From positions 1 to 21,540 of IMG/VR virus record IMGVR_UViG_3300018421_000260: a DNA stretch of 21,540 bases; one strand, written 5' to 3'. The notes beneath the pieces are model-generated. The model searched no databases and had not been told where the DNA came from. It was given only the letters and a program-made list of their open reading frames with translations. Each line of letters starts with the position of its first letter. Position 1 is the stretch's first letter. Below, piece by piece: positions 2,499 through 21,540 of the stretch. A program made the translations under genes and the position numbers. Source of the DNA: a virus.

Positions 2499-4718
2499 AT
2501 GGCTAAGATAACCAAAGGAAAACCTATCACTATAAGGGCGTCTAGGAATTACAATGCCAGAGGGAACGATGGAGAATATTTAGACGTGGAAAGTTTTTTA
2601 AAAAATTCCGCAATGGACGGGGTAACACAAAAAATTACATCACTAAACTACAACAAACAATCAGGGCAAGGCACAGAATACGAATTGCCTTCTCCTAACA
2701 CGTTAAACAAATTTGCAACATACAATTACCTTTTCACTTTGTCTGCTTTATCTTCAAGTGATTTAGAAAATCCCGAAGATATTTTAACAAATTCTCCACA
2801 TGATGTTATTGCTAGATCGGGTGGAATAGGGGACAAAGAATCTTTCACAGCATTTAAAACGAGCACACCCGATTCGATTAGAAACATAGATGGAAAAATT
2901 ACAACAAGAAAATTTAGCGAAAGTGAAACAGAAGGGTTACTAGATAGACTCAGACAGTCGGATAATGTATTAAGAAGGGGACACGATATATTTTTTGAAA
3001 GGGTGATCATAGACAGCACAAATAGACCAAACGAGCAAAGAAAATTAATGAACTACAATAAAATTGAAATAGAGTTAGTTGAACCCCACGGCATAACACT
3101 TTTTGAAAAATTAAAAGCGGCTTCTTGGAATAACGGATTTCAGGATCATATAGATGCTCCGTACCTGTTGACATTAGAATTCAAAGGCACAGATGAGTTA
3201 GGTAGAGAAATATCTATACCTGATAGCAAAAGAGTAATGCCAATAAAGATCACAAATGCACCCATGACTTTTAATAACGGAGTCACTAGTTACAATTTAA
3301 CGGCTGTGCCGTGGACAGAGTTCGCCATGACCGATAGGTTTTTATATACTAGAAGCACATACACAATAGTGGACAAAATTAAAAACTTTTTTTCGGCCGC
3401 ACATCCGACGTTACAGTCAGCACTGGATCACCTTGCAAATCAATTGACAGTGGCACAAGATGACGAAATAGAAAAACAACTTAGAGCAACAAGAGATGCA
3501 TATGTTATTAAAATCGATCCACGTGTGGCCAATCCGGAAGATGGTACACCTTTAAAGAACCAAGGAAGTTCTAATTATAATATAAATCAAACAGGTGGAT
3601 TCAAAGCAACAGTAAGGCCTGGTATGAGTATAGCAAAAATTATTACCGATTTAGTAAAACAGGCCGACTACTATAAAAACATAACAGATCTTGTTTTGAG
3701 AAAATGGAAAACCACAACAAATGTTGATACAGGAGATACCGCAGATACAGATTTCATGGTTCCTTGGTTCAAGGTCATCACAAATGTGAGAACATTAAAC
3801 AATCAATTAGATTCAATAACCAAGATGCATCCAAAAATTATAGAGTTCCACGTGGTGCCTTTCAAAGTTCATGTTATGAATTTTGTTATACCTGGAATGA
3901 GTTTGCCATTGGCAAAATTTGCGAGAGTAAAAAAAGTTTACGACTATGTATTCACAGGCAACAACACAGAAGTTTTAGATTTATCGATAGATTACAAATA
4001 CGGATATTTTCAAGCAAGACTATCAAATAATTTGCCGGGTGTGGCACAAGATAAAATGAATCTCAGCATAGGTGATAAATTTGCAAGACTGGTAGCTCAG
4101 TCTAACACACCGTATCCGGATGGCCTTTTACCCTTGAGAAGTTATCCGTCAATACAATCTTCAGCGAAAGGTTATCAGCGTGACCTCGATGGTTCTCCGG
4201 TATTGGACGAATACTTTGAATATCTAACAAATCCCAGAGGAGATATGGTAAACGTAAATTTAAAGATAATGGGAGATCCAGCATGGTGTGGACAAGATCA
4301 TTTTTTACCAGTCAAAAGATCCGGTCTTGATTCTTACGAAATGGTAGGTAATCTAGGCAATTATGCATGGGACGAAAAAAGACAATGTTTTAATTTTGAT
4401 CAGGCAGAGGCATTAATGAATCTCAATTTTAGATTTCCAACAGATATCAATGAAATAAAAGGAGTAATGGATTTTTCCAATTTAGAAAATATACAGTTCA
4501 CCGGATTATATAAAGTGCCTCGTGTTGTCAGTACTTTTGAAAAAGGCCAGTTTACTCAAGAGCTCACTTGCGTTCGTTTAAATAATCAAGGAACGGAGAT
4601 CAAAGTGCCAACGAAAGCAGAATTAACGGAAGATAAAAAAACCAATAAAAATACAATTGATTACGCCCCGATAGACTTACCAAAAGACGGTGGCAACTAC
4701 GGAGAGGGAGGCGCATAA
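2499..4718 (+). CDS. Large structural protein, probable baseplate hub (gp27-like role)
   Basis: A 739-residue protein with no signal peptide or membrane segment. I recognise it as a conserved marine T4-like structural protein but cannot assign a T4 gene from motifs alone. Segments that look like phage hub/tail-tube-fold proteins include YNKIEIELVEPHGITLFEKL (186-205), PYLLTLEFKGTDELG (221-235), MPIKITNAPMTFNNGVTSYN (247-266), YDYVFTGNNTEVLDLSIDY (481-499) and a C-terminal GLYKVPRVVSTFEKGQFTQ. The MGDPAWCGQDHF segment (591-602) also recalls hub proteins. It lies directly before the gp5-like spike gene, and in T4 the trimeric gp27 hub binds gp5, so a hub role is the best inference. It is nearly twice the length of T4 gp27 (391). 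The start has TAGGG 7 nt upstream and follows the gp53 stop by one base. Confidence 0.55.
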   Translation: MAKITKGKPITIRASRNYNARGNDGEYLDVESFLKNSAMDGVTQKITSLNYNKQSGQGTEYELPSPNTLNKFATYNYLFTLSALSSSDLENPEDILTNSPHDVIARSGGIGDKESFTAFKTSTPDSIRNIDGKITTRKFSESETEGLLDRLRQSDNVLRRGHDIFFERVIIDSTNRPNEQRKLMNYNKIEIELVEPHGITLFEKLKAASWNNGFQDHIDAPYLLTLEFKGTDELGREISIPDSKRVMPIKITNAPMTFNNGVTSYNLTAVPWTEFAMTDRFLYTRSTYTIVDKIKNFFSAAHPTLQSALDHLANQLTVAQDDEIEKQLRATRDAYVIKIDPRVANPEDGTPLKNQGSSNYNINQTGGFKATVRPGMSIAKIITDLVKQADYYKNITDLVLRKWKTTTNVDTGDTADTDFMVPWFKVITNVRTLNNQLDSITKMHPKIIEFHVVPFKVHVMNFVIPGMSLPLAKFARVKKVYDYVFTGNNTEVLDLSIDYKYGYFQARLSNNLPGVAQDKMNLSIGDKFARLVAQSNTPYPDGLLPLRSYPSIQSSAKGYQRDLDGSPVLDEYFEYLTNPRGDMVNVNLKIMGDPAWCGQDHFLPVKRSGLDSYEMVGNLGNYAWDEKRQCFNFDQAEALMNLNFRFPTDINEIKGVMDFSNLENIQFTGLYKVPRVVSTFEKGQFTQELTCVRLNNQGTEIKVPTKAELTEDKKTNKNTIDYAPIDLPKDGGNYGEGGA
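4701..4711 (+). promoter_or_regulatory. Ribosome binding site choosing the ATG at 4723 for the spike gene
   Basis: The purine run GGAGAGGGAGG, inside the last codons of the hub gene, ends 11 nt before ATG 4723. It favours that ATG over the in-frame GTG at 4690, which would add 11 residues overlapping the hub gene and has no SD at a suitable distance. Confidence 0.7.
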
Positions 4719-4722
4719 AATT

Positions 4723-6855
4723 ATGGCATTCAATCAAGGTGATACTTCTACTCCTAATTTACACATCAACAGTACATCTTATACACAAATAAATCCAGGA
4801 CCTTACATAGGTATAATAAAATCAAACGATGATCCTTCTCGAATGGGAACTTTAAAAGTGGCTATCCCTTCATTGTCGAACACAAACAACCCTTCAACGG
4901 ATCAATTATACATTGTAAAATATCTACCTCATTTCTATGGTATAAAAAGTACAAACGGTGTTGATGCTACCGATATAACAAAATATGATTCTTCTCAACA
5001 TTCTTATGGAATGTGGATGAATCCACCAGACATCGACACAAGGGTAATGGTCATATTTGTTGAAGGAAATGTTTCTGAAGGATATTGGATAGGATGTGTT
5101 CCGGAACCTTATATGAACAATATGATTCCGGGTATTGCCGCGGACAAAACTTATGATGAAGTACAAGCAAATGAGTTATCAGGAACTCCTAGCCAAACAG
5201 GAGGATTTAATCGTATACGAGATTACGGAACAGATGTGCTTCCTACAGGAGAAGCCAACAGGGGAGACTTTGCATCTGCATCGGCGTTGGGTATAGATAA
5301 ATTAAAAAAACCAATGCATCCTTTTGCAGATATTTTAAGGAAACAAGGACTGACACAGGATACTGTCAGGGGAACAACCACATCAACCGTCAGAAGAGAA
5401 TCACCCAGCAGTGTGTTTGGTATCAGCACTCCGGGTAGAGTCAATCAGCGATCTAAAGGTAAAAAAACTCCAGTAGGTCCTTCGGACAAAAAAGAAATTA
5501 AGCAATTGGCAAGAGGACCCGGACACACTTTTGTCTTAGATGACGGAGATGTAGACGGAAACAATCAATTAGTACGATTAAGATCGGCATCAGGTCATCA
5601 ATTATTAATGAACGACACGGCAGGCGTGGTATATCTGGCCAATGCCGACGGAAGTGTATGGATGGAATTTTCTAAATCTGGTATGGTCGACATTTATGCT
5701 CAATTAGGATATAACATAAGGTCAGGCGGAAACATAAATTTTCACGCAGAGGGCGATATCAATATGTATGCCAACAACAACATCAAGATAAAAGCCAACG
5801 AAAAAACAGGTAGGTTATCGCTGGACGCTGATGTGTTAAGGGGGATAGGTAGAAGTGCAGTGCAACTGGATTCAGACGAGGGTATTTTAACCTTGAGAGC
5901 CAAACATAGTTTATTGACACAATCAGTACAAGGAAATCAAATACATCAAGCCGCAGGAAGGGTGGATCTAGTGGGAGATCAAATACATTTTAACAGTATT
6001 GGAAAAACTGATCTAGTCCCAGGATTAACCAGAACAAGTTTTGCACAACCCACAGGCACAGGAACACAAACAGTAGGACATCAAGATGTCACTCCTAGAT
6101 TTATAGGAGAGATGCACAAGATTGACAGAGAACTTACAGGACTGACTGGAATGAGAGTTCCAACTCACGAGCCATATTGGGGACATCTAGACAGGACCCC
6201 GATCTTTAGTTCTGTTGGCGGAGCATCAACAGCCACAGGAACAGTGGGAGCATTAGAAAACGCCAATAGAAATTCTAATTTATTTTCGATAAGATTTGCA
6301 CAAGCGGAAGCAGATCTAAATGCCGAAATAGAAAAAAATATAACAACACCGATCAATTCAATAGCAAATATTTTTAAAGCAGATTATTCTAAAAAAATTG
6401 GATTGCCGGATTCCATAACTGGAGTTTTCAATGATTACAAATCTTTGGGAAAGGGTGAGATGGAATTGTTTAACAGATTAGTAGAATCAACAGGAGTCAC
6501 AAACACAGGCAATATAAGACAGGTGCTCGCAACTTCTTCCGGTATAATATATGCCAAAGGAACCGAAGCCGCGGTTTCTGTTATTGACAAAGCAACAAAA
6601 GGTGCATTGGGTAAAGCACAAACAGTGATCAAATCAGCAGGTTCTGTATTGAACACAGTCAACAGTGCAATAGATTCGGTCAACCAAGTGGATACAGCAA
6701 TCAAGTCAGTGAGTAAAATAACTGAAACTTACACAAATGTTATCGGTAGCCAAGTCACCCAAGTCACACAGGTTTCTGATGTAATAAGTAATATTGGAAA
6801 CAAAATTGCTTCCGTGGCGAGAAGCATAGGAGATAAATTTAAATTTAAATTTTAA
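4723..6855 (+). CDS. 5: Baseplate central spike protein, gp5-like, without a recognisable lysozyme domain
   Basis: A 710-residue spike protein. Residues about 26-140 form an OB-fold-like domain (GPYIGIIKSNDDPSRMGTLK, VMVIFVEGNVSEGYWIGC, then PYMNNMIPGIAA). A polar linker follows (141-262, with HPFADILRKQGL and VFGISTPGR). Residues about 263-430 are a VgrG-like beta-helical spike, with GHTFVLDDG, LVRLRSASGHQLLMND and the repetitive GNINFHAEGDINMYANNNIKI. MRVPTHEPYW (477-486) is a segment I know from cyanophage gp5. The last about 190 residues are helical and rich in Ala, Ser, Val and Thr, ending in KFKFKF. T4 gp5 carries a lysozyme between OB fold and spike; here only the polar linker lies there. 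Role: membrane-puncturing tip of the tail tube. It lies next to the likely hub gene and is followed by gp25 after 2 nt. Confidence 0.8.
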   Translation: MAFNQGDTSTPNLHINSTSYTQINPGPYIGIIKSNDDPSRMGTLKVAIPSLSNTNNPSTDQLYIVKYLPHFYGIKSTNGVDATDITKYDSSQHSYGMWMNPPDIDTRVMVIFVEGNVSEGYWIGCVPEPYMNNMIPGIAADKTYDEVQANELSGTPSQTGGFNRIRDYGTDVLPTGEANRGDFASASALGIDKLKKPMHPFADILRKQGLTQDTVRGTTTSTVRRESPSSVFGISTPGRVNQRSKGKKTPVGPSDKKEIKQLARGPGHTFVLDDGDVDGNNQLVRLRSASGHQLLMNDTAGVVYLANADGSVWMEFSKSGMVDIYAQLGYNIRSGGNINFHAEGDINMYANNNIKIKANEKTGRLSLDADVLRGIGRSAVQLDSDEGILTLRAKHSLLTQSVQGNQIHQAAGRVDLVGDQIHFNSIGKTDLVPGLTRTSFAQPTGTGTQTVGHQDVTPRFIGEMHKIDRELTGLTGMRVPTHEPYWGHLDRTPIFSSVGGASTATGTVGALENANRNSNLFSIRFAQAEADLNAEIEKNITTPINSIANIFKADYSKKIGLPDSITGVFNDYKSLGKGEMELFNRLVESTGVTNTGNIRQVLATSSGIIYAKGTEAAVSVIDKATKGALGKAQTVIKSAGSVLNTVNSAIDSVNQVDTAIKSVSKITETYTNVIGSQVTQVTQVSDVISNIGNKIASVARSIGDKFKFKF

Positions 6856-6857: not shown

Positions 6858-7268
6858 ATGGCATACTCAAATAACCCATCAAACAAACAACAAAATCAAA
6901 CTCTATTCAAGGGTTTTAGTTCTAAAGCAGAGCAGAGCAATTATAAATTATATGATTTTGCTTTGATCAAACAAAATCTTATGAATAGATTGTCGATCAG
7001 AAAAGGCGAGCGTGTGGAAAATCCAGAATTTGGCACAATTATATACGATATGTTGTTTGAACCTCTAACAAATGCCACAAAAGAATTGATTGCCAACGAT
7101 ATATCCGAAAATTTAAACGCAGATCCTAGAGTGAGCACATCCGACATAGTTGTAAGCGAAAACGGGCAAGGAATAAGTGTACAAGCAACACTAACATACA
7201 TACCATATAATATTACCGAGAAATTGTCTTTTAATTTTGATCAAAATTCAACATTTAATCTTTCTTAA
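6858..7268 (+). CDS. 25: Baseplate wedge protein gp25 (GPW/gp25 family)
   Basis: A 136-residue protein, almost the same length as T4 gp25 (132). Residues 42-69 carry the family signature: NRLSIRKGERVENPEFGT, with the conserved Arg-x-Gly-Glu and Pro-x-Phe-Gly, then IIYDMLFEPL. The remainder (ANDISENLNADPRVSTSDI, then a beta hairpin) fits the alpha/beta fold. gp25 sits in the inner baseplate with gp6 and gp53 and contacts the first sheath ring, which triggers contraction. The first about 25 residues are Asn/Gln/Ser-rich and probably flexible. The spike gene's stop is two bases upstream, so coupling with the split ribosome binding site described separately is possible. In T4, gene 25 lies away from genes 5 and 6; here it is between them. 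Confidence 0.92.
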   Translation: MAYSNNPSNKQQNQTLFKGFSSKAEQSNYKLYDFALIKQNLMNRLSIRKGERVENPEFGTIIYDMLFEPLTNATKELIANDISENLNADPRVSTSDIVVSENGQGISVQATLTYIPYNITEKLSFNFDQNSTFNLS

Positions 7269-7312: not shown

Positions 7313-10300
7313 ATGGCCACTACAGATAGACAAAACAGATTACTCGTTGCGGAAGATTGGACAAAGATCTATACGGCTTTTCAACAGGCAGATTTTAAAT
7401 CGTATGATTTTGAGACATTGCGTAGAACAATGGTTTCTTATCTCAAAGAAAATTATCCAGATGATTTTAATGATTTTGTTGAATCATCGGAATATATCGC
7501 ACTAATTGATCTAATTGCCTATATCGCACAGAGTTTAAGTTTTAGAGTTGACTTAAATGCTCGAGAAAACTTTCTTGAAACGGCCAGCAGAAGAAATTCA
7601 GTTTTAAGATTAGCGAGATTAATCAACTACAATGCCAAACGAAACAAATCTGCGATTGGATTATTAAAATATACATCAGTGTCAACGACACAAGATATCA
7701 GAGACAGTGCAGGAAACAGTTTGTCTAATGTCACAGTTGGATGGAACGATGCTACCAATCCTAATTTCAAAGAACAGTTCACCGCAATATTAAGTGCAGT
7801 CAATCAGTCTTCACAAAAGTTTGGCAAACCGTTGGAATCAGATAATGTGGGAGGAATCAAAACTGAAGTTTATGTAGTTAATTCATCAAATAATGACTTA
7901 CCAATTTTTACGTTTAACAGAGCAGTGAGTGGAGTAGCAAGAAATTTTGAGATTGTTCCAGCAACGATTTCAGGACAGGAAGCCATTTATGAATTTCCAC
8001 CAACACCGGGAACAGGATTTAGATATGTTTATAGAAACGATGGTGCTGGCGACAACAGTCCCAACACTGGATTTTTTTGTTTATTCAAACAGGGCTCATT
8101 GGCCAGCGAACAGTTTACAATTTCACAACCAACAACTAATTTTGTAAAAACGATTGCAACAAACAACATAAACAACGATGACGTGTGGTTATATAAATTA
8201 GATGACTTCAATCAATTGGAATCATTGTGGACACAGATACCTTCGTTGACAGGAAACAATGTAATCTACAACAGTTTATCAAAAGATATTAGAAATATCT
8301 ACAATGTCATTACAAAAAATAATGATCAGATTGATTTAGTATTTGGTGACGGAAACTTTTCTAATATTCCATCGGGAGCATTTAGATGTTATTATAGAAC
8401 ATCGGACAATGCGAGATACAACATACAACCAAATGATATGGCAGACATATCTTTTTCAATTCCATATGTTGATCAGTTTGGTGCTAATCAGTTATTAACT
8501 GTGACGGCTTCGTTACAACAAAGCATTTACAATGCATCAGCAACAGAATCGAATGATTCTATCAAACAAAAAGCATCGCAAGTTTATTATTCTCAAAACA
8601 GAATGATAACAGCAGAAGATTACAATGTTGTACCTTTATCAGTATCACAGGAAATTATAAAAGTAAAATCAGTCAACAGATCTGCATCTGGTATATCTAG
8701 AACAAAGGAAGTGATTGATCCAACGGGTGCGTACTCCAATGTGTCAACTTTTGCTGATGACGGAATAATTTATAGAGAAGAGTCCATACCACAATTTACT
8801 TTTACATTTACCAACAGGAACGAAATTTTAGATGTGATCAATAGCAAAATTGAAAGCAAATTATCTGATGCATATTCTCGACAGTTTTATTATCAAAAAT
8901 ATGGAACACAAGATTTATCAACATTATCGGCAAGTTGGGTATCAACAACAACCAGCACTAATACAAATACTGGATATTTTGTAGCAGGCGGTCCATTGAC
9001 TGTGGGATCATTTTCAACCAGTAACTTAAAACACGCAAAACCGGGAGCATTGATAAAATTTGTTTCACCCGACACAAGAAAATTTTTAAATGGTGTATTG
9101 GTATCGTCGACGACCGATGTAGCAGAAGATAGGGCATGGGCAAAGATTTCGAATGTGGTGGGAGATGGTGCAAATTCCGGTCTAGGAAATTTAGAATCAG
9201 GAGTTGGACCTATAACGTTAAATGATATCATTCCTTCGAATGCAGTTTTATCAGCAGTGATTCCTCCTTTCACAACCCTGTTACCTACAGAGTTGAAAGA
9301 AGACATACAGAATAGAATTGAAACCTACGAAGAGTTTGGATTAAGGTTCGACGAACAAGACGGAGAATGGAAAGTAATTACTTCGTCAAATTTAGGTTCA
9401 TCCAACACATTCTCTTTAAACAATGCGGGCACAAACACATTGACCAATTCAGATGATAGTTGGTGGTTTAAACTTACTAACGATGGTAACACTTATACCG
9501 TGCAGTATAGATCATTGGATTATGTTTTTGAATCGGTATCGGAAAATAAATTTCATTATGATAAAACAGATAAAATCTACGATTATGTTTCAGGACAAAC
9601 AGTAAAAGATACAGTAAAAATTCTTAAAAGTAATACTGTTCCAAGTTCCGGTACAGTGATAGGTTATCCAATCAATTGGCAAGTGGTTGACACAATCACC
9701 GAATCGGATGGTTATCAAGATAATAGAAAAGTTAAGGTTGGTTTTTTTGATCAAGACGACGATGGGGTAGTTGATAATCCGGAAATTTTTGATATTATTG
9801 TGGAACCATCACAAAATGTTGCTTCCAAGTATGTATTTTTTGAAAAATATATCAGTTATGATAATATTGAAAGATACAGACCCAAAGATGCAACCAGTTT
9901 TATTGTGACGGAAAACGAATCAAGCATAATATTACCTGGAAATTACGCAGACAAACAGTTATTTTATTTTTATTCCAATGACTCGATTAAACATTTCGAT
10001 TCAGCAACGACATCTTTGGTAACGAACACAAATTATATTGCGAGAATTGGAAGAAGTTCTATAGAATTCCAATACAAACATTTTGTTGGACAGTCAACTA
10101 GAGTAGATCCTGCACAAACAAATATTATGGATATCTATTTGTTGGAGAGATCGTATGATCAATTATTTAGAACATGGTTAAGAGAAGGTGGAACACAACC
10201 AAAACCTTCAACATCGGACCAATTACGAATTTCTTATTCGAATTCACTTAATTCGTTGAAAGGATTATCTGATCAAATAATTTATCACCCGGTCAAATAT

Positions 10301-10786
10301 AAAATTTTATTTGGATCACAAGCAGATGAGGCCTTCCAAGCAACATTTAAAGTGGTCAAGAATGCAAGTTCAAACATTACAAATGCCATAATCAAAACCA
10401 AAGTTATACAAGCAATCAATGAATTTTTTGCTTTAAATAATTTTGATTTTGGCGACACTTTTTATTTTACAGAATTAGCGGCTTACATACACAATCAACT
10501 CGCTCCAGATTTATTAACAGTTATCATAGTTCCAAATCAAGCAGGACAATCGTTTGGATCTTTATTTCAAATTAGCGGAGCGTCCGACGAAATTTTTATA
10601 AGCGGAGCAACAGTGGATGATGTGGTTATAATTGATGCCATCGGAGCAAATCAAATATCAGCATCTGGAACAGTTGTCACTAGCACTACCGGAACAACCA
10701 CCAGCGGTAATTCAACATCGGCAGTAACCTCAGTTACTACTTCGACCTCAGGTACTGGCAGTTCGGGTAGTGGCACAGGGTACTAA
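7313..10786 (+). CDS. 6: Baseplate wedge protein gp6 (baseplate J-like), enlarged
   Basis: A 1,157-residue protein; T4 gp6 has 660. Residues about 25-110 are the gp6-type N-terminal helical region, with YDFETLRRTMVSYLKENYPD, EYIALIDLIAYIAQSLSFRV and RENFLETASRRNSVLRLARL. Residues about 343-465 form the baseplate J-like core: LVFGDGNFSNIPSGAFRCYY, then SNDSIKQKASQVYYSQNRMI and TAEDYNVVPL. Residues about 973-1110 look like the C-terminal gp6 dimerisation region (YHPVKYKILFGSQADEAF). Between them is an insert that includes an EF-hand-like loop at 813-824. The last about 40 residues are almost all Thr, Ser and Gly. In T4, gp6 dimers form the iris ring that joins the six wedges. No SD precedes the ATG, whose upstream 40 nt are nearly all A/T. 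The giant gene starts 2 nt after the stop. Confidence 0.88.
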   Translation: MATTDRQNRLLVAEDWTKIYTAFQQADFKSYDFETLRRTMVSYLKENYPDDFNDFVESSEYIALIDLIAYIAQSLSFRVDLNARENFLETASRRNSVLRLARLINYNAKRNKSAIGLLKYTSVSTTQDIRDSAGNSLSNVTVGWNDATNPNFKEQFTAILSAVNQSSQKFGKPLESDNVGGIKTEVYVVNSSNNDLPIFTFNRAVSGVARNFEIVPATISGQEAIYEFPPTPGTGFRYVYRNDGAGDNSPNTGFFCLFKQGSLASEQFTISQPTTNFVKTIATNNINNDDVWLYKLDDFNQLESLWTQIPSLTGNNVIYNSLSKDIRNIYNVITKNNDQIDLVFGDGNFSNIPSGAFRCYYRTSDNARYNIQPNDMADISFSIPYVDQFGANQLLTVTASLQQSIYNASATESNDSIKQKASQVYYSQNRMITAEDYNVVPLSVSQEIIKVKSVNRSASGISRTKEVIDPTGAYSNVSTFADDGIIYREESIPQFTFTFTNRNEILDVINSKIESKLSDAYSRQFYYQKYGTQDLSTLSASWVSTTTSTNTNTGYFVAGGPLTVGSFSTSNLKHAKPGALIKFVSPDTRKFLNGVLVSSTTDVAEDRAWAKISNVVGDGANSGLGNLESGVGPITLNDIIPSNAVLSAVIPPFTTLLPTELKEDIQNRIETYEEFGLRFDEQDGEWKVITSSNLGSSNTFSLNNAGTNTLTNSDDSWWFKLTNDGNTYTVQYRSLDYVFESVSENKFHYDKTDKIYDYVSGQTVKDTVKILKSNTVPSSGTVIGYPINWQVVDTITESDGYQDNRKVKVGFFDQDDDGVVDNPEIFDIIVEPSQNVASKYVFFEKYISYDNIERYRPKDATSFIVTENESSIILPGNYADKQLFYFYSNDSIKHFDSATTSLVTNTNYIARIGRSSIEFQYKHFVGQSTRVDPAQTNIMDIYLLERSYDQLFRTWLREGGTQPKPSTSDQLRISYSNSLNSLKGLSDQIIYHPVKYKILFGSQADEAFQATFKVVKNASSNITNAIIKTKVIQAINEFFALNNFDFGDTFYFTELAAYIHNQLAPDLLTVIIVPNQAGQSFGSLFQISGASDEIFISGATVDDVVIIDAIGANQISASGTVVTSTTGTTTSGNSTSAVTSVTTSTSGTGSSGSGTGY
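9749..9784 (+). other. EF-hand-like calcium-binding loop inside gp6
   Basis: Codons for residues 813-824 of gp6 read DQDDDGVVDNPE. This fits the canonical 12-residue EF-hand loop: Asp at positions 1, 3, 5 and 9, Gly at 6, a hydrophobic residue at 8 and Glu at 12. No paired second loop is seen, so it is more like the single loops of dockerins or FG-GAP proteins than a full EF-hand pair. Confidence 0.55.
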
Positions 10787-10788
10787 AG

Positions 10789-13700
10789 ATGGCAGATTCT
10801 CCAATTAATAGTGTAAAAAATTCTGAAGTTGTTGTTGACAAACAAGGCATCAGTTATAGAAGATCTATTGCTCATCTTCCAGCATTTTATAGAACAGACA
10901 CAAACCATAGATTTTTATCTAGCACAGTTGATCAATTAATACAGCCGGGAAAACTTGAAAGGCTCGACGGTTTTATCGGAAGAGATTATTCATATACCAG
11001 AGAAGCAACGGACAGTTATATAGAAGCATCAAGCAACGATAGACAAAATTATCAACTTGAACCAACAGTAACATACACAGATAAAGATACATCATCTATC
11101 AATCCAGAGGATCAAGTAAAATTTACTGGAACATATGACGATTATATTAATCAAATAAAATATCTAGGTGGAAATACTTCAGATCATAGCAGACTAAACA
11201 GTGAGGATGTGTATGCATGGAATCCAGCAATTGACTATGATAAACTTATCAATTACAGAGAGTATTATTGGTTGCCCGAAGGACCAAATCCAATCACAAT
11301 ATCAACCACCGGACCAAACGCAGTTATAGATCTAATAGTATCTCGAAATGGAAAATCGGGTTTTGTATTTCAAAATCTTTCAAATACAGAACTAAATCCA
11401 ACAATAACATTGTATAAGGGTAATACCTATAAGTTTCATGTGGATAATCCGGGTCATCCTTTTTACATAATGACCGAACCTTTCAAGGGAGGAATCTCAG
11501 TAGACGGTAGCACTTCTCTACTTTATAACAATGGAGTTGGAAATAACGGCATAGATGCCGGAACATTGACATTTACTATTCCTTCTAATGCACCAGATAT
11601 CTTACATTATCAGTGTGGAAATCACAGTGCCATGCATGGCATTATAAAAATTCAGGCAGTAGAGGAAACAACTAAAATAGATCCGGAAAAAGAGATCATA
11701 GGTACAAAAAATTATACAACACATTCGAATGTAAAATTATCAAATGGAATGAAAATTAAGTTTGGTAGCAATGTGATTGACACTACTTTAAAACCGTATG
11801 CCAATAGAGAATTTTATGTTGAAGGAGTAGGACAGTCTATCACACTAACAGACACCACAGACTTATTGCCAACAGGTTCTTATTCTTCTGAAGTGACAGA
11901 GTTGTATGATGAAGTTGCATATGCAGATAGACCGTATGCGGTAAGTTTTTTTAGAGCAGAAACTCCAGATTATATAACAATCAAAAGAAGTTCTATTGAC
12001 GGCAACTCGTGGTCCAGATACAACAGATGGTTCCATAAATCTGTCATAGAAGACACGGCCACTGCATTGGGTTATACAGCATCTCTAGATCAAGATAGCA
12101 GAGCAAAAAGACCAATCATAGAGTTCGACTCGGGATTGATTTTATATAACCATGGAACCAAAGCAAAAAAATCGGTTTCGTTGGTCGACACAGTGACAAC
12201 TGACGTGTTTTCAGAGATAGTTAACAAATTAGGATATGTCATCGACGGTGTAGAGATACAGGAAGGAATGAGAATACTGATAGCCAATGATAAAGATCCC
12301 TTAATTAATAACAAGATTTATAAAGTTTCATTCGTGAAAGTACAAGGTCAAGACGTGACCAGTTTAAATTTAACCGAAGATTCAGACACAAATCCTATCG
12401 ACGGTGAAGCAGTAACAGCCGAGTATGGCAGAAACCATCAAGGAAAAACATTTTTTTATAGCAGTTCAACGAAAAAATGGCAAACTGGACAAAACAAAAC
12501 CAAATTAAATCAATCTCCTTTGTTTGACCTCTATGATAGTAATCATGTTTCTTTTTCGAACACAACAACATATCCCAATTCAACATTTTCTGGTGCAACA
12601 TTATTTTCTTATAAAACAAGTGATTCTGCGGTGTTGGATTCTGTGCTGGGATTAAAAGTAAAATACAAAACAATTAACAATGTCGGAGACATACTTTTCA
12701 CATCAGATCTAGCGACTAATAGTTTTGATTACAATATAAACAACACAATTTACACTAAATCTTTTAAGACAGGACACACACACGTACAGAACGAATATAA
12801 CAAACATCGTAGTCAAACCAATTGGAAGAAATTAAAAGCAAAAAGTAAACAGCGTGTGGTGAGAACTTTTGTAGTGACACCGGAAGAAAAAGTTTTCTTT
12901 CCTATAGATTTTTACAAGAATAGTAATTCGTTAGTCGACCTTGAAGTCACAGTCTCAGTGAATAACAATGTTAAAAAAATAACATCTGATTTCACTTTGG
13001 TAAATGGTACAACAAACAAATATATTAAATTCAACAATGCTTTGAATGTGAACGATATCGTGTTGGTTCATGCGTCGAGCTCAGCAAAAAAAATTGATGG
13101 AAAAGGTTTATATGAGATTCCCGAAAATATTTCGATAAATCCACTCAACGAGCAGATATCTGATTTTACATACGGACAGATATTATATCATTTAAATGAT
13201 ATAAATGAAAAAAATAATGAGATCATTGGACAAACTCCGGGATCGAGCAATCTTAGAGATCTTCCAGGTTTTAGAGCGTTGGGAGGATCGATTATCCAAC
13301 ACCAATCGCCTTTGCCGCAGGCTGTCTTTTCTCTCATAGACGAAAACTCAAACGCTATCAGAGCCATAGAATATTGTTCTCGAGAATATCAAAGTTTCAA
13401 AGAAAATTTTCTTACATTCAATGTTGGAACAACATATAATCAAAATGCCGCAGATAGAGTAGATGAAATTTTAAAAGGGATGGCCGGCGAAAAAAACAAT
13501 TCGTTTCCTTTCTTTTATGAGGACATGGTGGGTTATGGAGCAAATGTTTCAACAAGAACTTATACAGTCAACGATCCCACAATTGTGGATTACGCCATTG
13601 ATTCTCTTTTTGATATTTCAAAAACTAGTAATAGGGCAGTGTATCTGTATAAAAATGATACACAATTATTAGTGGGAACAGACTACACTTTCAGCACAAC

Positions 13701-16700
13701 CGACGATAGTGTTAAAATTTTAACAACACTTTCAACAGGTGATGTTATCAAAATAAAAGATTACACTGATACAACAGGAAGTTTTATACCTCCAACACCG
13801 ACAAAACTTGGAATGTATCCAAAATACAAACCAGAGATCATACAAGATAACACATATATTGAAACAAAAAATGTGATAGTGGGACATGATGGTTCAAAAA
13901 CTATTGCTTATAATGATTACAGAGATGATATTTTGCTAGAACTAGAAAAAAGAATATACAATAATTGCAAAATAAATCACAATAATAATTTACTTAAAGA
14001 AACAGATGTAAGGCCTTCAGCCTTTATGTCAACTAGTGAATATACCACAAAAGAAATTGATGATATCATGAGCAGAGATTTTTTTGCTTGGGCAGGTAAA
14101 AATTCAGTTGATTATCAAAAAAATAATTTTTACGACAATTCAAATCAATTTACATGGAATTACAGTCAGTCGAAAGATACAATCAATGAACAATTCCTTC
14201 CAGGACACTGGAGAGGTATTTTCAAACTATTTTATGACACAGATAGACCACATATTGCTCCATGGGAAATGTTGGGTTACAGTGAAAAACCTACGTGGTG
14301 GGAAGAAACATATGGACCAGCACCATATACATCAGGAAATACATTGCTGTGGACCGACCTAGCAAACGGGTTTGACAATTCGAACAATTCCGCGAATGCT
14401 CGATTTATTAGATCTAACTTGTTAAATTATCTACCGGTCGATGATACTGGAGCATTAAAATCTCCAGTCGCTATAGGATTAGTTTCTGAGTATACCTACA
14501 ACGGAACAACTTCCAAATGGAAATTTGGTGACCAGGCACCTGGAGAAACAGCATGGAGAAGAAGTTCTCAGTATCCTTTCTCTATTATAAAAATGTTGGC
14601 ATTGACAAAACCTGCTAAATTTTTTGGAAATTATTTAGACAACAGTAGATTAATCGCCACAGTGGAAGGTAATTTATATAATTCCGAAACAGAAACAATC
14701 CAAACTCTTAAAAATGTAAAATATCATTTAGAAACAATTACAGATACGATAACTGGAACCACGACAAGATATAGCACGGCTGGTTATCAACCTCTTGTCG
14801 TAAACTATTTGATTAGTCAAAATTTAGACCCTGCAAAGTTCTTTTATGATAAAATGAAAAACTTAAATGTTCAGTTAGGATACAAACTAGGAGGATTCAC
14901 TGACAAAGATAATTTAAAAATATTGACAGACAGTATAAGTCCAGGATCAACTGCGGGGTCTCAGTTTATACCTGAGGAAAACTATAAACTCTTGTTTAGA
15001 TCCAGTAATCCGGTAGAGTCCTATGATTATTCAGGCGTTCTTGTGGAACTCAATAGTGCAACAGGCATTGACGGAAGCACACTTGAAGGGGGGTATAAAG
15101 TTATAGGTTACAATACTGCCAAACCGTACTTCGATGTTTTTCTTCCGGTAAAAAATGGCAAAAAATATTTATTATCGTCTGAAAATGAACAAGTGGTTGC
15201 CTATCAGATATTCGATAATAAGAAAACTATTATACCTTATGGAACAGTGTTCAAAAACAAACAAGAAGTTGTTGATTTTTTATTAGGATATGGAAAATAT
15301 TTAGAGTCTCGAGGATTTATTTTTGATAAGTTTTCAAATGAATTAAAAGAGATATCCAATTGGGAATTATCGGCAAAAGAATTTTTATATTGGACCACGC
15401 AAGGATGGGCACCCGGTTCTGCCATCACATTAAGTCCGGGAGCAGACGGTTTCAGCCTCGAAACCAACAACAGCGTAATCAACAAATTAAACGACACCAC
15501 TGGAGAATACAGTGTATTGAATTCTGCTGGTAAGAAAATACCAAAATCATTTATCAGTACAAAACGTATAGGTAACACATTTGAAATGTCAACAAAAGGA
15601 ACGTTAGATGGAATATACAATGTGTCTATGAATGCTGTTCAGAAAGAACACATACTGTTATTTGATAACATTACAGTATTTTCTGATATAATTTTTCAAC
15701 TACAAACAGGTTTCCGACAACAGCGTTTAAAATTAATTGGTTGGAAAACAGCCAATTGGAATGGAGATTATTACGCACCGGGGTTTGTTTTTGATGAGGC
15801 CTATGTAAGTATGTGGACAGCAAATACCGATTATCAAATCGGAGACACTGTCGAGTACAATGCAGGCTTCTATGTTGCCAAGAGCAATCATAATGCAGGT
15901 AATGAATTCACAGCAGAGTATTGGATCAAAAAAGATGAAAAACCTGCTCCACAATTAATTCCCAACTTTGATTATAAAATTTCTCAATTTAATGACTTCT
16001 ATAATTTGGAAACAAACAATTTTGATGAGTCACAACAGGGATTGGCACAACACTTAATAGGATATCAATCAAGAACGTATCTAGACAATCTATTCACAAA
16101 CGATATCTCACAATATAAATTTTATCAAGGGTTCATCAAAGAAAAAGGTACACAAAACGCAATCAATAAATTAACAAAGGCGAAGTTTTATGATGAAAAT
16201 ATTGATCTAAATGTGTATCCGGAATGGATGATCAAGTCTGGAGAATTTGGTAATCTTAATGCGACACAAAGTTTGCAGATCTCAATGCCACAAAATACAT
16301 TTAAAAATAACATACAAAGTATAGAGTTCACAAATAACAGTTTAGAAAACCTGAACTGGACTAAATCTGCCAGAGTAAATAGAAATGAGTTTTATTCTAC
16401 TCCTATAGAGTACGAGGTAGCAAACACATTTGATTATTTCGATTACAATCAAGAAGGTTACGACAGAAAAACAGTACAAAAATTTCCAGTTGCAGGATTT
16501 CCTAGATTGTCCGATGTGCAACATACTGCTTTTAGCATAAACGATCTTTTTAATCTGGATATAACACAAATCAACAACAATGATTTGGTTTGGATAGCGA
16601 AAAAACAAAACAACGATTGGGACGTACAACGAATTACTTTCGCAAATCTAAAAATAGTGGCAGTCAGAGCAGTCAATGATAATACAGAATTAGAAATAAC

Positions 16701-19700
16701 GTTTGATAAAACTCATACATTTAGCGTGAATGACATACTGGCCATCAAAAACAGTTCACGTGACACAATGAATGGTATCTATGCTGTGTCCACAATTCCA
16801 GCAAATAATAAACTAACTTTTGCATTCGATACTCCTGAACAATTTATATCTACAGATATATTGGCAGACGAATCAACGTTGTCAATTTTTGGACTTGTTT
16901 ATAAATTTATCAGTGTCAGAATATCAAGCATGGACAATGTTAACTCGTTGATCTCTTATGATGAATACAGAGACGATGATGTGACAAACGAACGACCAGG
17001 CGACATTGTATTCGTAGACAACGAAAATTCAAAATGGAAAATATATGAAAAAACTGATCCTTACAGTTCGAATGTTTTATCATCACCGACAGTGTCAGCA
17101 AATCAGGAGTTCGGCCACAGAATAGTTTCACGTGAAGATGGAAGATATATTGCCGTGTCTGCTCCTCAATCCGGACAAGGTACTGTGAATTTCTTTGTGA
17201 GAAGAGAATCAAATTCTACGTCGACATTTAATTTAACAAGTAGTTTTACAACGACACAAGGTGCAGATAATACCACAAGGCTGGGTGATAGTTTAACTAT
17301 GAGTTCTGATGAGAACTTTGTTGTCGCAGGTGCACCACAAGCCAATATTAGACACATAAGTGACAGTAGCATTTATAATGATGCTGGATTAATATCAATT
17401 TATAATTGGAACACAACAACAAAAGTATACGAAGAACAATTAACGATAACACCGGAGCAAGAAGGTAGTACCAGCATTGCCAATTGGAATTTTGGTTGGG
17501 CAACAGCATTGGCAGAACCGATAGAAAATTCTACGTTATCAACAACTCCTAAATATCTTTTTGTAACTGTTCCAGGGCATGACCTTGACACAGGATCAGT
17601 ATTTTTATATAAATGGCAAAACACAGATGACAGCACCTCATGGACATTAACAACAACATTGACCAGTACAGATGCCGATGCAGGCCAAAGATTTGGACAC
17701 AGTATTGCGGTAAACGACAATGCCGACATAATTGCTATAGGATCTAAAAATCCAGAAACTGCAGGTAAAGTTGAAATATTCAAAAGAACTTCAGAAAATA
17801 CATTTATTCATAGACAAACATTGACAGGAGTCAGTGCTGACGGTAGCAGTAATGATACTCAATTTGGAGATTCGTTGGAGATGAGCAGTGACGGGACTAC
17901 TTTGATTGTGTCGGCTCCCGGCATAGACGATGGTGTTGTGGCAAACACAGGCGCAGTTTATTATTATAAATGGAACGATCAGTCGTCATCAGAAACTTAT
18001 ACTTTAAAACAAACCATTAAATTGCCTAACACAGGTATAAACAATGTGAGTTTTGGATCAACTGTTAAAATCAATAAAACAGGTGACCGATTATTGATTG
18101 GTGCTGAAAGTTTTAGTACACCTACTGAAATGAAATTTGATTTTGGTGCAACTACATTTGATTTACAGGACACGGCCATCGTTGAAAAGAATAGATCATC
18201 CGGAGCAACATTTACGGCAACAAAATATGATTCGGAATTTGTTATTGATGATAAATTAACGACCACAACATTGAGCAGTGATGATCGTTTTGGCAGTGGA
18301 TTGGTCATAAACGACAATGTAATTTTGGTTGGATCTTCTCATGATGATGCATTATCGACAGATGGTTCAACGGTACAAGTTGATAGAGGTACAGTAACAG
18401 TTTACGATTATAAAACCAAGGGATCTTACGCTTGGAAAGTTTTAGAAACAGAAAGCACACTCATAGATAATAGAAAAATACAATCGTCTTTTATTTTTGA
18501 TAGTTCCACAAACAAAATAATTGATTATTTGAATTACTATGATCCGGTAAAAGGCAGAATTCTAGGTGTCGCCGACAGAGAAATAAATTTCAAATCTGAA
18601 TGGGATCCAGCAACATATAATATTGAATCAACAGAACAATTGATTAGTGTTGATAGGAAACAAGCATGGGGAGAAGAACACATAGGCGAAGTATGGTGGG
18701 ATTTATCTAAAGTAAGATGGATATGGTACGAGCAAGGTAGCCAGGAATATAAATCTAAAAACTGGGGAAGAATGTTTCCGAACAGCAGTATTGATATTTA
18801 CGAATGGGTAGAGTCAACATTGTTACCATCGGAATGGTCTGTAAGAGCAGACACACCAGCAGGCTTGGCATTGGGCATATCAGGACAGCCTTTAGATAAC
18901 AATGACCAGCGTGTGACTTTGAAACAAAAATACAATCCTCAGTCAGAAACTTTTGTGAACTATTATTATTATTGGGTAAGGAATTCGGTATTTTTACCAG
19001 AGTTAAACAAACAGGTCACGGAAAGAAAAAATTCAACAGCATATATTTCGAGAGTCATAGCAGATCCTTTATCATCTGGAATAAAATATTTTGGAATAAC
19101 TTCTTCCAACTCGTTGGTTACTTTGAACGTAAAAAACAGTCTGGTACTTAATAACACAGTCTTGAACATCAATTATAAAAATAATTTAAATGATGGAGAC
19201 AATCACACGGTATGGAAATTATTTAAAGAGGGAGATAAATTAGATAGACCAACAGAGGAAATTGAAAGAAAATGGTGGGATAGTTTAACAGGATCTGATA
19301 TCTATGGAAACCAAATTCCTGATCTATCGTTACCTTTGAGTCAGAGATACGGAAATTCTATAAGACCTAGACAAAGTTGGTATGTCAACAGATTAAATGC
19401 TGTGCAGGAAATAATACAATATACAAATTCAATATTAACACAATATCAAATTGCCAACAGTATCAATTATAAAAATCTAGATTCGCAAGATCCGGAACCT
19501 ACTAGTACTTCGGGAGAATGGGATACGGCAGTCGATACATATGCAGATTTAACTTACATCAATACCAATGACATCAGCGGAATATTGAATGTGTTGGTAA
19601 GAAGCGATGAAGTCAACAGTAAAAATCTTTGGGCGGTTTATCAATGGTCGGGAACTGAGTGGAACAGAAACAAAGTTCAAACTTATAAAACAAGCAACTA

Positions 19701-21540
19701 TTACAGTTATGTAGATTGGTATGCTTCTGGTTATTCGGTTGATAGCATTATTGATCAAACTGTCACGTATCAATATCAATTAGACACTCTATCGGTAGAT
19801 GTGGGAAAAATTATTAAAGTCACTCTAGCAGATACCGGAGGATGGAAACTTTTTGTAAAAACAAATACAGGATGGGATAATATCGCTACCCAAAACGGAA
19901 CAATACAATTTTCTAGAGCTCTGTATGACTACACAGTTGAAGCATCGGGATTTGCTGGTTTGGACACATATGATGGAAACTTCTTTGACGATGAACCAAC
20001 AATAGAATTAAGAAAAATATTACAGGCATTGAGAGATGATATTTTCATAGGTGATTTATTAGTTGAGTACAATAACATATTTTTTATAGGTTTAAGAAAA
20101 GTTTTAGAAGAACAAATATATGTTGATTGGTTGGCAAAAACATCATTTATAAATGTAACTAACTTTTTAAGACCGTTAGATCAAAGAAAAACTTACAAAA
20201 TTGGAACAGAGAATTATGTGGAATCATACATCAATGAAGTCAAACCTTTCCACACAAAAATTCGAGAATATAAATTGGGTTACACAAAGTTAGACACACA
20301 ACAAGGAACAAATACCGACTTTGATTTACCAGCAATTTATGATGGTTCTGTCATAAGAAACTTATCATTGACAAATGAAGCAGATCTGACATTGTTAAAT
20401 TCTTATCCATACAACGAATGGAAAAACAATTATAAAAAATATGTCAGTTCTATAAGAGTTATCAATGGCGGTTCGGGTTATATAACTGCCCCAACAATCA
20501 CATTGGTGGGCGGCGCGACAACAACCACAGGACCTTTCCAAGTGAACGGATTGAGCCTGTCAGGACCAACATCAGGAACATCAGGATATTTCTATCCGGC
20601 CTATACCGCGGTGGCAGATGCCAATCTAGCAGACTCACAATCGGGTGGCACAGGATTAAGTGATGAATTTACATTCCAGGAATACCCAGGTATAAAATTT
20701 TACATTCCTCAAACTGGTCGATCGGTTTCACAGGCATCAGCGAGTTCTTTATACAACACATATGCGACAGCGGACACACTACAAGCGACTGCTAGGGCAG
20801 TCATATCCGGAGGAAAAGTGACAAGGATCGATGTTTTAACACCGGGATCAAATTACACAGCAACACCAACAGTGGTGATCACCGGCGGCGGCACGAACAA
20901 CAACACTCCGTCATCATCAGCAAAAGCATATGCAGTATTAAAAAATGATGCAGTGAGAGATATAGAAACAACAATTAAATTTGACAGGGTACAAAGAACA
21001 GGAAATGTTTTGATTTGGACCAAGGATACAAGTTATTCTGTTGGTGATCTATTAAGGTATGAGAATGATTTTTACAAAGTTGAAACAGCCTTTACAAGTT
21101 CTATAAAATTTAGCGAAGGATTAAACAACTTAATAAAACTCAGAGGAGATGAATCATACATCACAGCGGCAGAAAGAACATTAGGTCTATACGCACCACA
21201 ATCAGGAATGCCAGGAAACGAGTTATCTCAGGTCATGACAGGAGTGGATTATGGTGGAGTGATGGTCACAGGTTTAGCATTTGACAAATCACAAGGATGG
21301 GACGTTGACGACTGGTATAATCAAACCTGGGACACTTACGGATTGGCACAGAGTGTTAGATTCTACGGTGATGGCAGTACAATCGTATTCAATTTTGAAA
21401 TGGCACCACAACCAACTGATGTCTACACAGTGTATTTCACTGACATCAGTGATTCCACAGTGGGAACTGGTTCTATTATTGCTCAAGCAAATAAAAAACG
21501 TGTGAGACAATTCAAGACAGTGATCAGAGGTGATGGTTCA
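10789..21540 (+). CDS. Giant baseplate/virion structural protein, at least 3,584 residues (runs off the right edge)
   Basis: Hand translation from ATG 10789 stays open to the last base, 3,584 codons with no stop; the C-terminus is outside. AGGG lies 8 nt upstream, inside the gp6 tail, and the start is 2 nt past the gp6 stop. I recognise it as the very large structural protein of marine T4-like phages, from segments such as YREYYWLPEG, RDDILLELEKRIYNN, NWELSAKEFLYWTTQGWAPG, EVWWDLSKVRWIWYEQG and ESYINEVKPFHTKIREY. Parts in order: a cupredoxin-like domain (188-291); a long Tyr/Trp-rich backbone; a WT-GD module (1676-1712); seven FG-GAP repeats (about 2095-2545); more backbone; two Gly-Gly-x-Tyr-Pro repeats (3221-3368); a second WT-GD module (3410-3441). 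It has no signal peptide, and I count only three cysteines. Following gp6, it occupies the position of T4 gene 7 (1,032 residues, wedge initiator), so a gp7-like wedge role with added surface domains is the best inference. Confidence 0.85.
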   Translation, partial: MADSPINSVKNSEVVVDKQGISYRRSIAHLPAFYRTDTNHRFLSSTVDQLIQPGKLERLDGFIGRDYSYTREATDSYIEASSNDRQNYQLEPTVTYTDKDTSSINPEDQVKFTGTYDDYINQIKYLGGNTSDHSRLNSEDVYAWNPAIDYDKLINYREYYWLPEGPNPITISTTGPNAVIDLIVSRNGKSGFVFQNLSNTELNPTITLYKGNTYKFHVDNPGHPFYIMTEPFKGGISVDGSTSLLYNNGVGNNGIDAGTLTFTIPSNAPDILHYQCGNHSAMHGIIKIQAVEETTKIDPEKEIIGTKNYTTHSNVKLSNGMKIKFGSNVIDTTLKPYANREFYVEGVGQSITLTDTTDLLPTGSYSSEVTELYDEVAYADRPYAVSFFRAETPDYITIKRSSIDGNSWSRYNRWFHKSVIEDTATALGYTASLDQDSRAKRPIIEFDSGLILYNHGTKAKKSVSLVDTVTTDVFSEIVNKLGYVIDGVEIQEGMRILIANDKDPLINNKIYKVSFVKVQGQDVTSLNLTEDSDTNPIDGEAVTAEYGRNHQGKTFFYSSSTKKWQTGQNKTKLNQSPLFDLYDSNHVSFSNTTTYPNSTFSGATLFSYKTSDSAVLDSVLGLKVKYKTINNVGDILFTSDLATNSFDYNINNTIYTKSFKTGHTHVQNEYNKHRSQTNWKKLKAKSKQRVVRTFVVTPEEKVFFPIDFYKNSNSLVDLEVTVSVNNNVKKITSDFTLVNGTTNKYIKFNNALNVNDIVLVHASSSAKKIDGKGLYEIPENISINPLNEQISDFTYGQILYHLNDINEKNNEIIGQTPGSSNLRDLPGFRALGGSIIQHQSPLPQAVFSLIDENSNAIRAIEYCSREYQSFKENFLTFNVGTTYNQNAADRVDEILKGMAGEKNNSFPFFYEDMVGYGANVSTRTYTVNDPTIVDYAIDSLFDISKTSNRAVYLYKNDTQLLVGTDYTFSTTDDSVKILTTLSTGDVIKIKDYTDTTGSFIPPTPTKLGMYPKYKPEIIQDNTYIETKNVIVGHDGSKTIAYNDYRDDILLELEKRIYNNCKINHNNNLLKETDVRPSAFMSTSEYTTKEIDDIMSRDFFAWAGKNSVDYQKNNFYDNSNQFTWNYSQSKDTINEQFLPGHWRGIFKLFYDTDRPHIAPWEMLGYSEKPTWWEETYGPAPYTSGNTLLWTDLANGFDNSNNSANARFIRSNLLNYLPVDDTGALKSPVAIGLVSEYTYNGTTSKWKFGDQAPGETAWRRSSQYPFSIIKMLALTKPAKFFGNYLDNSRLIATVEGNLYNSETETIQTLKNVKYHLETITDTITGTTTRYSTAGYQPLVVNYLISQNLDPAKFFYDKMKNLNVQLGYKLGGFTDKDNLKILTDSISPGSTAGSQFIPEENYKLLFRSSNPVESYDYSGVLVELNSATGIDGSTLEGGYKVIGYNTAKPYFDVFLPVKNGKKYLLSSENEQVVAYQIFDNKKTIIPYGTVFKNKQEVVDFLLGYGKYLESRGFIFDKFSNELKEISNWELSAKEFLYWTTQGWAPGSAITLSPGADGFSLETNNSVINKLNDTTGEYSVLNSAGKKIPKSFISTKRIGNTFEMSTKGTLDGIYNVSMNAVQKEHILLFDNITVFSDIIFQLQTGFRQQRLKLIGWKTANWNGDYYAPGFVFDEAYVSMWTANTDYQIGDTVEYNAGFYVAKSNHNAGNEFTAEYWIKKDEKPAPQLIPNFDYKISQFNDFYNLETNNFDESQQGLAQHLIGYQSRTYLDNLFTNDISQYKFYQGFIKEKGTQNAINKLTKAKFYDENIDLNVYPEWMIKSGEFGNLNATQSLQISMPQNTFKNNIQSIEFTNNSLENLNWTKSARVNRNEFYSTPIEYEVANTFDYFDYNQEGYDRKTVQKFPVAGFPRLSDVQHTAFSINDLFNLDITQINNNDLVWIAKKQNNDWDVQRITFANLKIVAVRAVNDNTELEITFDKTHTFSVNDILAIKNSSRDTMNGIYAVSTIPANNKLTFAFDTPEQFISTDILADESTLSIFGLVYKFISVRISSMDNVNSLISYDEYRDDDVTNERPGDIVFVDNENSKWKIYEKTDPYSSNVLSSPTVSANQEFGHRIVSREDGRYIAVSAPQSGQGTVNFFVRRESNSTSTFNLTSSFTTTQGADNTTRLGDSLTMSSDENFVVAGAPQANIRHISDSSIYNDAGLISIYNWNTTTKVYEEQLTITPEQEGSTSIANWNFGWATALAEPIENSTLSTTPKYLFVTVPGHDLDTGSVFLYKWQNTDDSTSWTLTTTLTSTDADAGQRFGHSIAVNDNADIIAIGSKNPETAGKVEIFKRTSENTFIHRQTLTGVSADGSSNDTQFGDSLEMSSDGTTLIVSAPGIDDGVVANTGAVYYYKWNDQSSSETYTLKQTIKLPNTGINNVSFGSTVKINKTGDRLLIGAESFSTPTEMKFDFGATTFDLQDTAIVEKNRSSGATFTATKYDSEFVIDDKLTTTTLSSDDRFGSGLVINDNVILVGSSHDDALSTDGSTVQVDRGTVTVYDYKTKGSYAWKVLETESTLIDNRKIQSSFIFDSSTNKIIDYLNYYDPVKGRILGVADREINFKSEWDPATYNIESTEQLISVDRKQAWGEEHIGEVWWDLSKVRWIWYEQGSQEYKSKNWGRMFPNSSIDIYEWVESTLLPSEWSVRADTPAGLALGISGQPLDNNDQRVTLKQKYNPQSETFVNYYYYWVRNSVFLPELNKQVTERKNSTAYISRVIADPLSSGIKYFGITSSNSLVTLNVKNSLVLNNTVLNINYKNNLNDGDNHTVWKLFKEGDKLDRPTEEIERKWWDSLTGSDIYGNQIPDLSLPLSQRYGNSIRPRQSWYVNRLNAVQEIIQYTNSILTQYQIANSINYKNLDSQDPEPTSTSGEWDTAVDTYADLTYINTNDISGILNVLVRSDEVNSKNLWAVYQWSGTEWNRNKVQTYKTSNYYSYVDWYASGYSVDSIIDQTVTYQYQLDTLSVDVGKIIKVTLADTGGWKLFVKTNTGWDNIATQNGTIQFSRALYDYTVEASGFAGLDTYDGNFFDDEPTIELRKILQALRDDIFIGDLLVEYNNIFFIGLRKVLEEQIYVDWLAKTSFINVTNFLRPLDQRKTYKIGTENYVESYINEVKPFHTKIREYKLGYTKLDTQQGTNTDFDLPAIYDGSVIRNLSLTNEADLTLLNSYPYNEWKNNYKKYVSSIRVINGGSGYITAPTITLVGGATTTTGPFQVNGLSLSGPTSGTSGYFYPAYTAVADANLADSQSGGTGLSDEFTFQEYPGIKFYIPQTGRSVSQASASSLYNTYATADTLQATARAVISGGKVTRIDVLTPGSNYTATPTVVITGGGTNNNTPSSSAKAYAVLKNDAVRDIETTIKFDRVQRTGNVLIWTKDTSYSVGDLLRYENDFYKVETAFTSSIKFSEGLNNLIKLRGDESYITAAERTLGLYAPQSGMPGNELSQVMTGVDYGGVMVTGLAFDKSQGWDVDDWYNQTWDTYGLAQSVRFYGDGSTIVFNFEMAPQPTDVYTVYFTDISDSTVGTGSIIAQANKKRVRQFKTVIRGDGS
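11350..11661 (+). other. Cupredoxin-like domain with type-1 copper ligand set, inside the giant protein
   Basis: Residues about 188-291 read as an eight-strand cupredoxin fold: FVFQNLSN, NPTITLYKGNTYKFHV, GHPFYIMTEP, GTLTFTIPSNAPDILHYQC and HGIIKIQAV. The candidate ligands are His223 (GHPF), then Cys276, His279 and Met282 within YQCGNHSAMHG. Their order and the C-x2-H spacing match plastocyanin-like proteins; the H-x2-M spacing is shorter than plastocyanin's. This is one of only three cysteines in the readable protein. Copper binding and redox activity are inferred; the fold may be purely structural. Confidence 0.65.
15814..15924 (+). other. WT-T-Y-GD module 1 (carbohydrate-binding-like) in the giant protein
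   Basis: Residues 1676-1712 begin WTANTDYQIGDTVEYNAGFY and end with an F-x4-W pair. The arrangement of Trp, Tyr, Gly-Asp, Tyr and a closing Trp resembles small chitin/cellulose-binding domains (CBM5/12 type). The first 20 columns align without gaps to module 2 at 21016-21111. Sugar binding is inferred from pattern only. Confidence 0.45.
17071..18423 (+). repeat. Seven FG-GAP-type protein repeats (predicted seven-bladed beta-propeller)
   Basis: Residues about 2095-2545 of the giant protein contain seven degenerate copies of the FG-GAP pattern (FG-x-S-hydrophobic strand, then SAP/GAP-like turn, then a strand ending xYxW). The leading FG or LG pairs are at residues 2108, 2165, 2235, 2302, 2359, 2422 and 2501, so the spacing is 57-79. 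Clear examples are FGHRIVSREDGRYIAVSAP, LGDSLTMSSDENFVVAGAP and FGDSLEMSSDGTTLIVSAP. Seven copies make a closed integrin-alpha-like propeller. Repeats are seen at protein level only; the DNA has diverged. Confidence 0.75.
20449..20892 (+). repeat. Pair of Gly-x-Gly-Tyr / Pro-Thr repeats flanking an insert in the giant protein
   Basis: Copy 1 (20449-20514, residues 3221-3242) reads SIRVINGGSGYITAPTITLV followed by GG. Copy 2 (20800-20892, residues 3338-3368) has GGKVTRIDVLTPGSNYTATP, then TVVITGGG. Such GSGY-x3-PTV repeats are common in marine phage tail-fibre and structural proteins. The about 95 residues between them are a separate insert containing FTFQEYPGIKFYIPQTG. Confidence 0.55.
21016..21111 (+). 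other. WT-T-Y-GD module 2 (carbohydrate-binding-like) in the giant protein
   Basis: Residues 3410-3441 begin WTKDTSYSVGDLLRYENDFY and share W, T, T, Y, I/V, GD, V/L, Y and FY with module 1 without a gap. The end differs: FTSSIKF follows in place of the closing F-x4-W pair. It lies about 1,730 residues downstream of module 1. Confidence 0.45.

Follow-up and report, generated by a model that had tools for sequence, protein, structure and literature searches.

A cupredoxin-like domain with a conserved type-1-like ligand set in a giant structural protein of marine jumbo-type phages

The window analyzed here, a stretch of 21,540 nucleotides from an uncultured marine phage, is organized as a T4-like late operon. 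The minus strand encodes a late sigma factor of the gp55 type (153-1160), and the plus strand carries a gp53-like baseplate wedge protein (2198-2497; phrog_7145, E = 1.2e-29; PF11246), a gp5-like baseplate hub protein (4690-6855; phrog_13211; PF04717), a gp25-like wedge protein (6858-7268; PF04965, E = 4.1e-9) and a gp6-like wedge subunit (7313-10786; phrog_10646, E = 1.2e-291). The gp5-like frame is listed from a GTG overlapping the preceding gene (4690-4725), and the ATG at 4723 is the likelier start. Directly 3' of gp6, a giant frame on the same strand (10789-21540) encodes a phrog_10938-like structural protein. It is open throughout its 3584 readable residues and runs off the window, and in longer contigs the frames of its homologues stay open for 4204-4663 residues. 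The nearest named phages by gp6 are the jumbo phages Phosso, SCTP-2, Atu_ph07 and XaC1 and those of the PA5oct group. An earlier sequence-only reading of this DNA had spoken of marine T4-like phages, a label that needs refining toward the named jumbo phages that are closest by gp6. It had also called the giant protein a baseplate protein, a location that is read only from gene order, with gp53, the gp5-like protein, gp25 and gp6 upstream. The N-terminal 175 residues of the giant protein matched no solved structure, so a placement in the T4 baseplate was not obtained.

Elsewhere in the giant protein, FG-GAP_2 repeats, probably part of a beta-propeller, occur in two stretches at 17833-17961 (PF14312, E = 3.7e-13), and a weak match to a CBM_5_12 carbohydrate-binding domain lies at 15814-15903 (E = 0.0054, below the cut-off). 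In a Porticoccaceae metagenome-assembled genome (MAG), one contig belongs to this phage group and encodes the giant protein; the contig may be contamination or come from an infected cell, and is a possible hint of the host. None of 13 long contigs from the group has the gene psbA; as all of them are fragments, this gives no more than a hint of non-cyanobacterial hosts.

Near the N-terminus of the giant protein, residues about 180-293 (11326-11667, plus strand) make up a cupredoxin-like domain, as delimited by alignment, AlphaFold, Foldseek and a match to the C-terminus of phrog_677 (E = 5.5e-19). It is present as a single copy per contig in the 13 long contigs. The sequence-only reading had the position right, with a span (11350-11661) slightly too narrow. 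The four residues that it named as copper ligands are found in the translated frame where it put them: His223, the candidate first ligand, in an HPF motif in the loop before a strand (11455-11457), Cys276 as putative thiolate ligand (11614-11616), His279 as second His ligand (11623-11625) and Met282 as axial ligand (11632-11634). Cysteine is indeed rare, with three in 3584 residues (276, 863 and 1060), and the CxxHxxM motif is found once in the giant ORF (3584 residues).

The domain was modeled with AlphaFold from 44 sequences of the window and viral contigs, which gave a confident beta-sandwich of eight strands (pLDDT 87.1); its ends are of low confidence, and the loop around residues 232-241 is weak. 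In a joint fold of residues 1-418, about 171-360, the domain included, were confident and the first 160 were not. In the model, H223 lies in a short loop preceding a strand, C276 directly follows the penultimate strand and M282 immediately precedes the final one, and these predicted ligand positions are those of the cupredoxin layout. Among the 50 best Foldseek matches in the PDB, 49 are titled pseudoazurin, cupredoxin AcoP, rusticyanin, copper nitrite reductase or laccase, and the remaining one is 3cvd, whose title does not name the molecule. The top match is a pseudoazurin carrying the amicyanin loop, and the probability is 1.00 for pseudoazurin, nitrite reductase, rusticyanin and laccase, with moderate TM-scores (0.39-0.52). 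The spacing of the amicyanin loop is CxxHxxM. The predicted structure thus supports the cupredoxin-like fold that had been proposed from the letters. Fold matches in BFVD include small "beta-sandwich" proteins of pithovirus- or marseillevirus-like metagenomic viruses (A0A481Z6J5, A0A481Z7Q7 and A0A481YVH3).

Similarity to known copper proteins at the level of sequence profiles is marginal. A 16-row profile of the domain found 25 PDB sequences at E up to 10, 23 of them copper proteins (best E = 0.003), and also picked up, in a bacterial genome, a cupredoxin whose N-terminus resembles an export signal (E = 6e-4). Aligned with hhalign, the phage H, C, H and M are paired with the H, C, H and M of this exported bacterial cupredoxin, and the type-1 ligand set is thus in the order claimed and in register with a classical cupredoxin. 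The similarity is weaker with a broader 44-row profile, for which a GB1 fusion and a cerato-platanin entry come first and azurins follow at E = 0.05-0.26; the cupredoxin assignment relies on fold and register rather than on this list. A single-sequence PDB search of the domain gave nothing useful. The window domain matches neither PF00127 (Copper-bind) nor PF13473 (Cupredoxin_1); among 16 domain members, two weakly match the former (best E = 0.018) and one the latter (best E = 0.015). The At5g54830-like family PF25489 scores 19.5-21 bits, under its curated cut-off of 27 bits, and this profile is uninformative over 60 genomes, where it had zero matches, controls included. For the cupredoxin (type-1 copper) superfamily, a Greek-key beta-sandwich, the ligand set and detectable profile similarity were all found, the first of these in the predicted model. 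The domain looks like a cupredoxin by fold, ligands and conservation, yet it misses the curated Pfam cut-off for plastocyanin and azurin.

We sought homologues in such a way that the motif itself was not selected for, by fetching 80 loci through the 175 residues upstream of the domain, and all 80 carry the domain. When domain-seeded and upstream-seeded loci are combined, H223 is kept in 85, C276 in 83, H279 in 84 and M282 in 85 of the 85 giant-protein rows; loci fetched with a Cys-containing pattern are left out of these conservation counts. Homologues of gp9, a baseplate wedge tail fibre connector of cyanophages, were likewise fetched through the gp9 N-terminus, and all 57 unique domains keep the four ligands; the single one of 80 gp9 ORFs that lacks the domain stops at a contig edge. 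Synonymous codons differ at the His and Cys positions while the residue is unchanged. Among 20 divergent copies (named phages including S-B43, a single-cell virus and one MAG) with a mean pairwise identity of 40%, the ligands are kept in 19, 19, 19 and 20 copies, and all four positions rank within the top 13 of 114 columns by conservation (hypergeometric P about 1e-4). The invariant columns of the 16-row alignment, which leaves out S-B43, were not counted. The four residues are jointly conserved in homologues. The free variation of Cys276, His279 or Met282 that would have spoken against the sequence-only reading is not seen, nor does the model, read by secondary-structure position, set the four residues far apart. 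The ligand site is under selection.

The exceptions are few. In the tail fibre of Synechococcus phage S-B43, H, C and H are replaced by F, A and V and the Met is kept, and in one further copy (L093) C276 and H279 are lost together, whereas single ligands are lost in L012 (C to G) and L222 (H to M). Because such natural copies exist, the site is not always needed, and because the ligand-less S-B43 retains its Met, the conservation of Met282 may be partly structural. In sum, the observation made from the sequence is confirmed, and its interpretation is supported in part, for the fold, the ligands and their joint conservation, with the baseplate assigned by gene order and the T4-like label refined as above.

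Alignment with jumbo phages places the domain in a variable loop between a Trp-containing segment (residues 159-165) and a DYI-x-I-x-R segment near residue 394. This loop is essentially empty in 121Q and XaC1. Phosso, Atu_ph07, SCTP-2 and Cassandra carry a different insert there, and the insert of the marine group is longer and includes the cupredoxin. Since the loop is empty or otherwise filled in relatives, the comparison of sequences suggests that the domain is a peripheral inserted module. The domain also ends gp9 of cyanomyoviruses and occurs in cyanophage tail fibres and podoviral structural genes, and 324 phage records, nearly all of cyanophages, match it. Five viral proteins of about 1400-2100 aa (L252, L253, L255, L257 and L260) have two copies each. 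A gene of Synechococcus phage S-SCSM2R annotated as PetE (L166, 1303-1809) was considered as a link to plastocyanin and rejected; its product has the phage-type domain after an N-terminal part in which no signal peptide is evident, and it is probably not a photosynthetic plastocyanin.

The closest described counterpart is cyanophage gp9 (phrog_677), whose C-terminal domain is the same, with the same four residues at about 30-40% identity. In gp9 the domain terminates a short connector, whereas in the giant protein it is inserted. Only profile positions 262-409 of 412 align to the giant protein, and the N-terminal part and size of gp9 differ, hence the giant protein is not a member of phrog_677 as a whole. 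The gp9 domain has no cupredoxin or metal annotation in PHROG or in record names. With amicyanin, pseudoazurin and plastocyanin, the phage domain shares the predicted fold and, in register, the H and C-x2-H-x2-M set. It differs from these type-1 blue copper proteins by the His-Pro-Phe after the first ligand, by an extra loop and by scores below the Pfam cut-offs; moreover, blue copper proteins are exported electron carriers, whereas the phage domain is part of a virion protein made in the cytoplasm. Two adjacent small bacterial genes (L264 and L266), in one of 299 genomes searched, encode a signal-like N-terminus followed by the domain with the four ligands; they share 44% identity with the window domain over 86 columns and, unlike the giant phage protein, are single-domain. 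Metal sites on marine phage tails are also represented by the HxH iron sites of T4 gp37-type fibres (PMC11705849) and by YHYH domains (PMC7824862), which differ from the cupredoxin-like domain in fold, ligands and predicted metals (Fe, Zn).

From the computed fold, ligand set, joint conservation and loss, modular insertion and spread in tail proteins, we infer that the domain is probably a cupredoxin module displayed on the tail, with a mononuclear metal site maintained by selection, the metal probably being copper, and that it serves tail stability or adsorption. In a marine jumbo-type myophage, the module would occupy a variable and peripheral loop not far from the giant protein's N-terminus, and its type-1-like site would be formed by His223 before a strand and by Cys-x2-His-x2-Met on the last loop, with the metal joining the loops at one end of the barrel. 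The gene order argues for display at the baseplate, and a role in stability or adsorption is proposed because the domain keeps company with gp9, tail fibres, FG-GAP repeats and the weak carbohydrate-binding match. The related domains that terminate gp9 and occur in cyanophage tail fibres would be displayed in the same role. Copper would most likely be held in the virion, acquired either inside the lysing cell or once in sea water. Free copper is scarce in the reducing cytoplasm, where the protein folds, and this counts against the copper reading.

A site that takes up zinc or another non-redox metal from the cytoplasm, purely structural like other metal sites of phage tails, is unlikely, though it has some chance of being correct. 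Expression of azurin in E. coli is known to yield the zinc form as a by-product, and the azurin fold is preserved with zinc bound (PMC12071310); the HxH-type iron sites of tail fibres show that tails carry metals (PMC11705849). In zinc azurin, however, the Met no longer coordinates the metal (PMC12071310), yet Met282 is the most strictly kept ligand of the phage domain, and copper is favored over zinc on this ground.

It is decidedly improbable that the domain is an adhesin derived from a cupredoxin, with metal binding lost and the four residues retained for packing and hydrogen bonds. Such a reading would accommodate the persistence of the ligand-less copies L093 and S-B43 and the fact that G211, Y214, F216, P269, Y274 and G284 are conserved as strictly as the ligands. 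It does not account for the retention of the Cys and the two His at 40% mean identity despite synonymous codon change, and the joint loss of ligands in S-B43 and L093 is predicted by a metal site and not by packing.

The copper-loaded domain might also engage a copper-uptake receptor in the outer membrane of the host, a copper version of the iron Trojan Horse, which we regard as very unlikely. Its presence in gp9, tail fibres and the giant protein would suit such a function, azurin secreted by a type VI system has been reported to bind the copper receptor OprC (PMC6907878), and tail-fibre iron has been proposed to act likewise (PMC11705849). The azurin-OprC complex was, however, not reproduced by others (PMC8610252). 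Receptor-binding parts, moreover, usually differ between hosts, whereas almost all members of the families concerned carry the domain. That the site is a functioning redox centre, sensing an event of adsorption or setting one off, is hardly credible: its ligand set is that of electron-transfer cupredoxins, but the giant protein has neither a redox partner nor a second metal centre nor a further Cys in its vicinity. Mimicry of plastocyanin in a cyanobacterial host is not favored, and it is weakened by the missing psbA in the 13 contigs.

Beyond the displayed metal-bearing module that we prefer, a broader claim, that virions of marine tailed phages widely carry type-1-like copper centres and use the copper-loaded domain in host recognition or tail triggering, is doubtful and quite unlikely as it stands. 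We could not find a description of a tail copper centre of this kind, or any of this phage domain, in the open-access literature, to which the search was confined; this negative result is weak evidence of novelty. The natural ligand-less copies in S-B43 and L093 are built-in controls for the proposed site. Should copper occupy the site, a metal centre would be present on the tail of a large proportion of ocean phages, comprising the 324 records and the jumbo group, and phage adsorption or tail stability would be tied to copper chemistry. Phages would then join the marine pool of copper ligands, much as they have been suggested to do for iron, and the domain, which at present has no name in the hundreds of gp9 and tail-fibre annotations that include it, would acquire a testable meaning.
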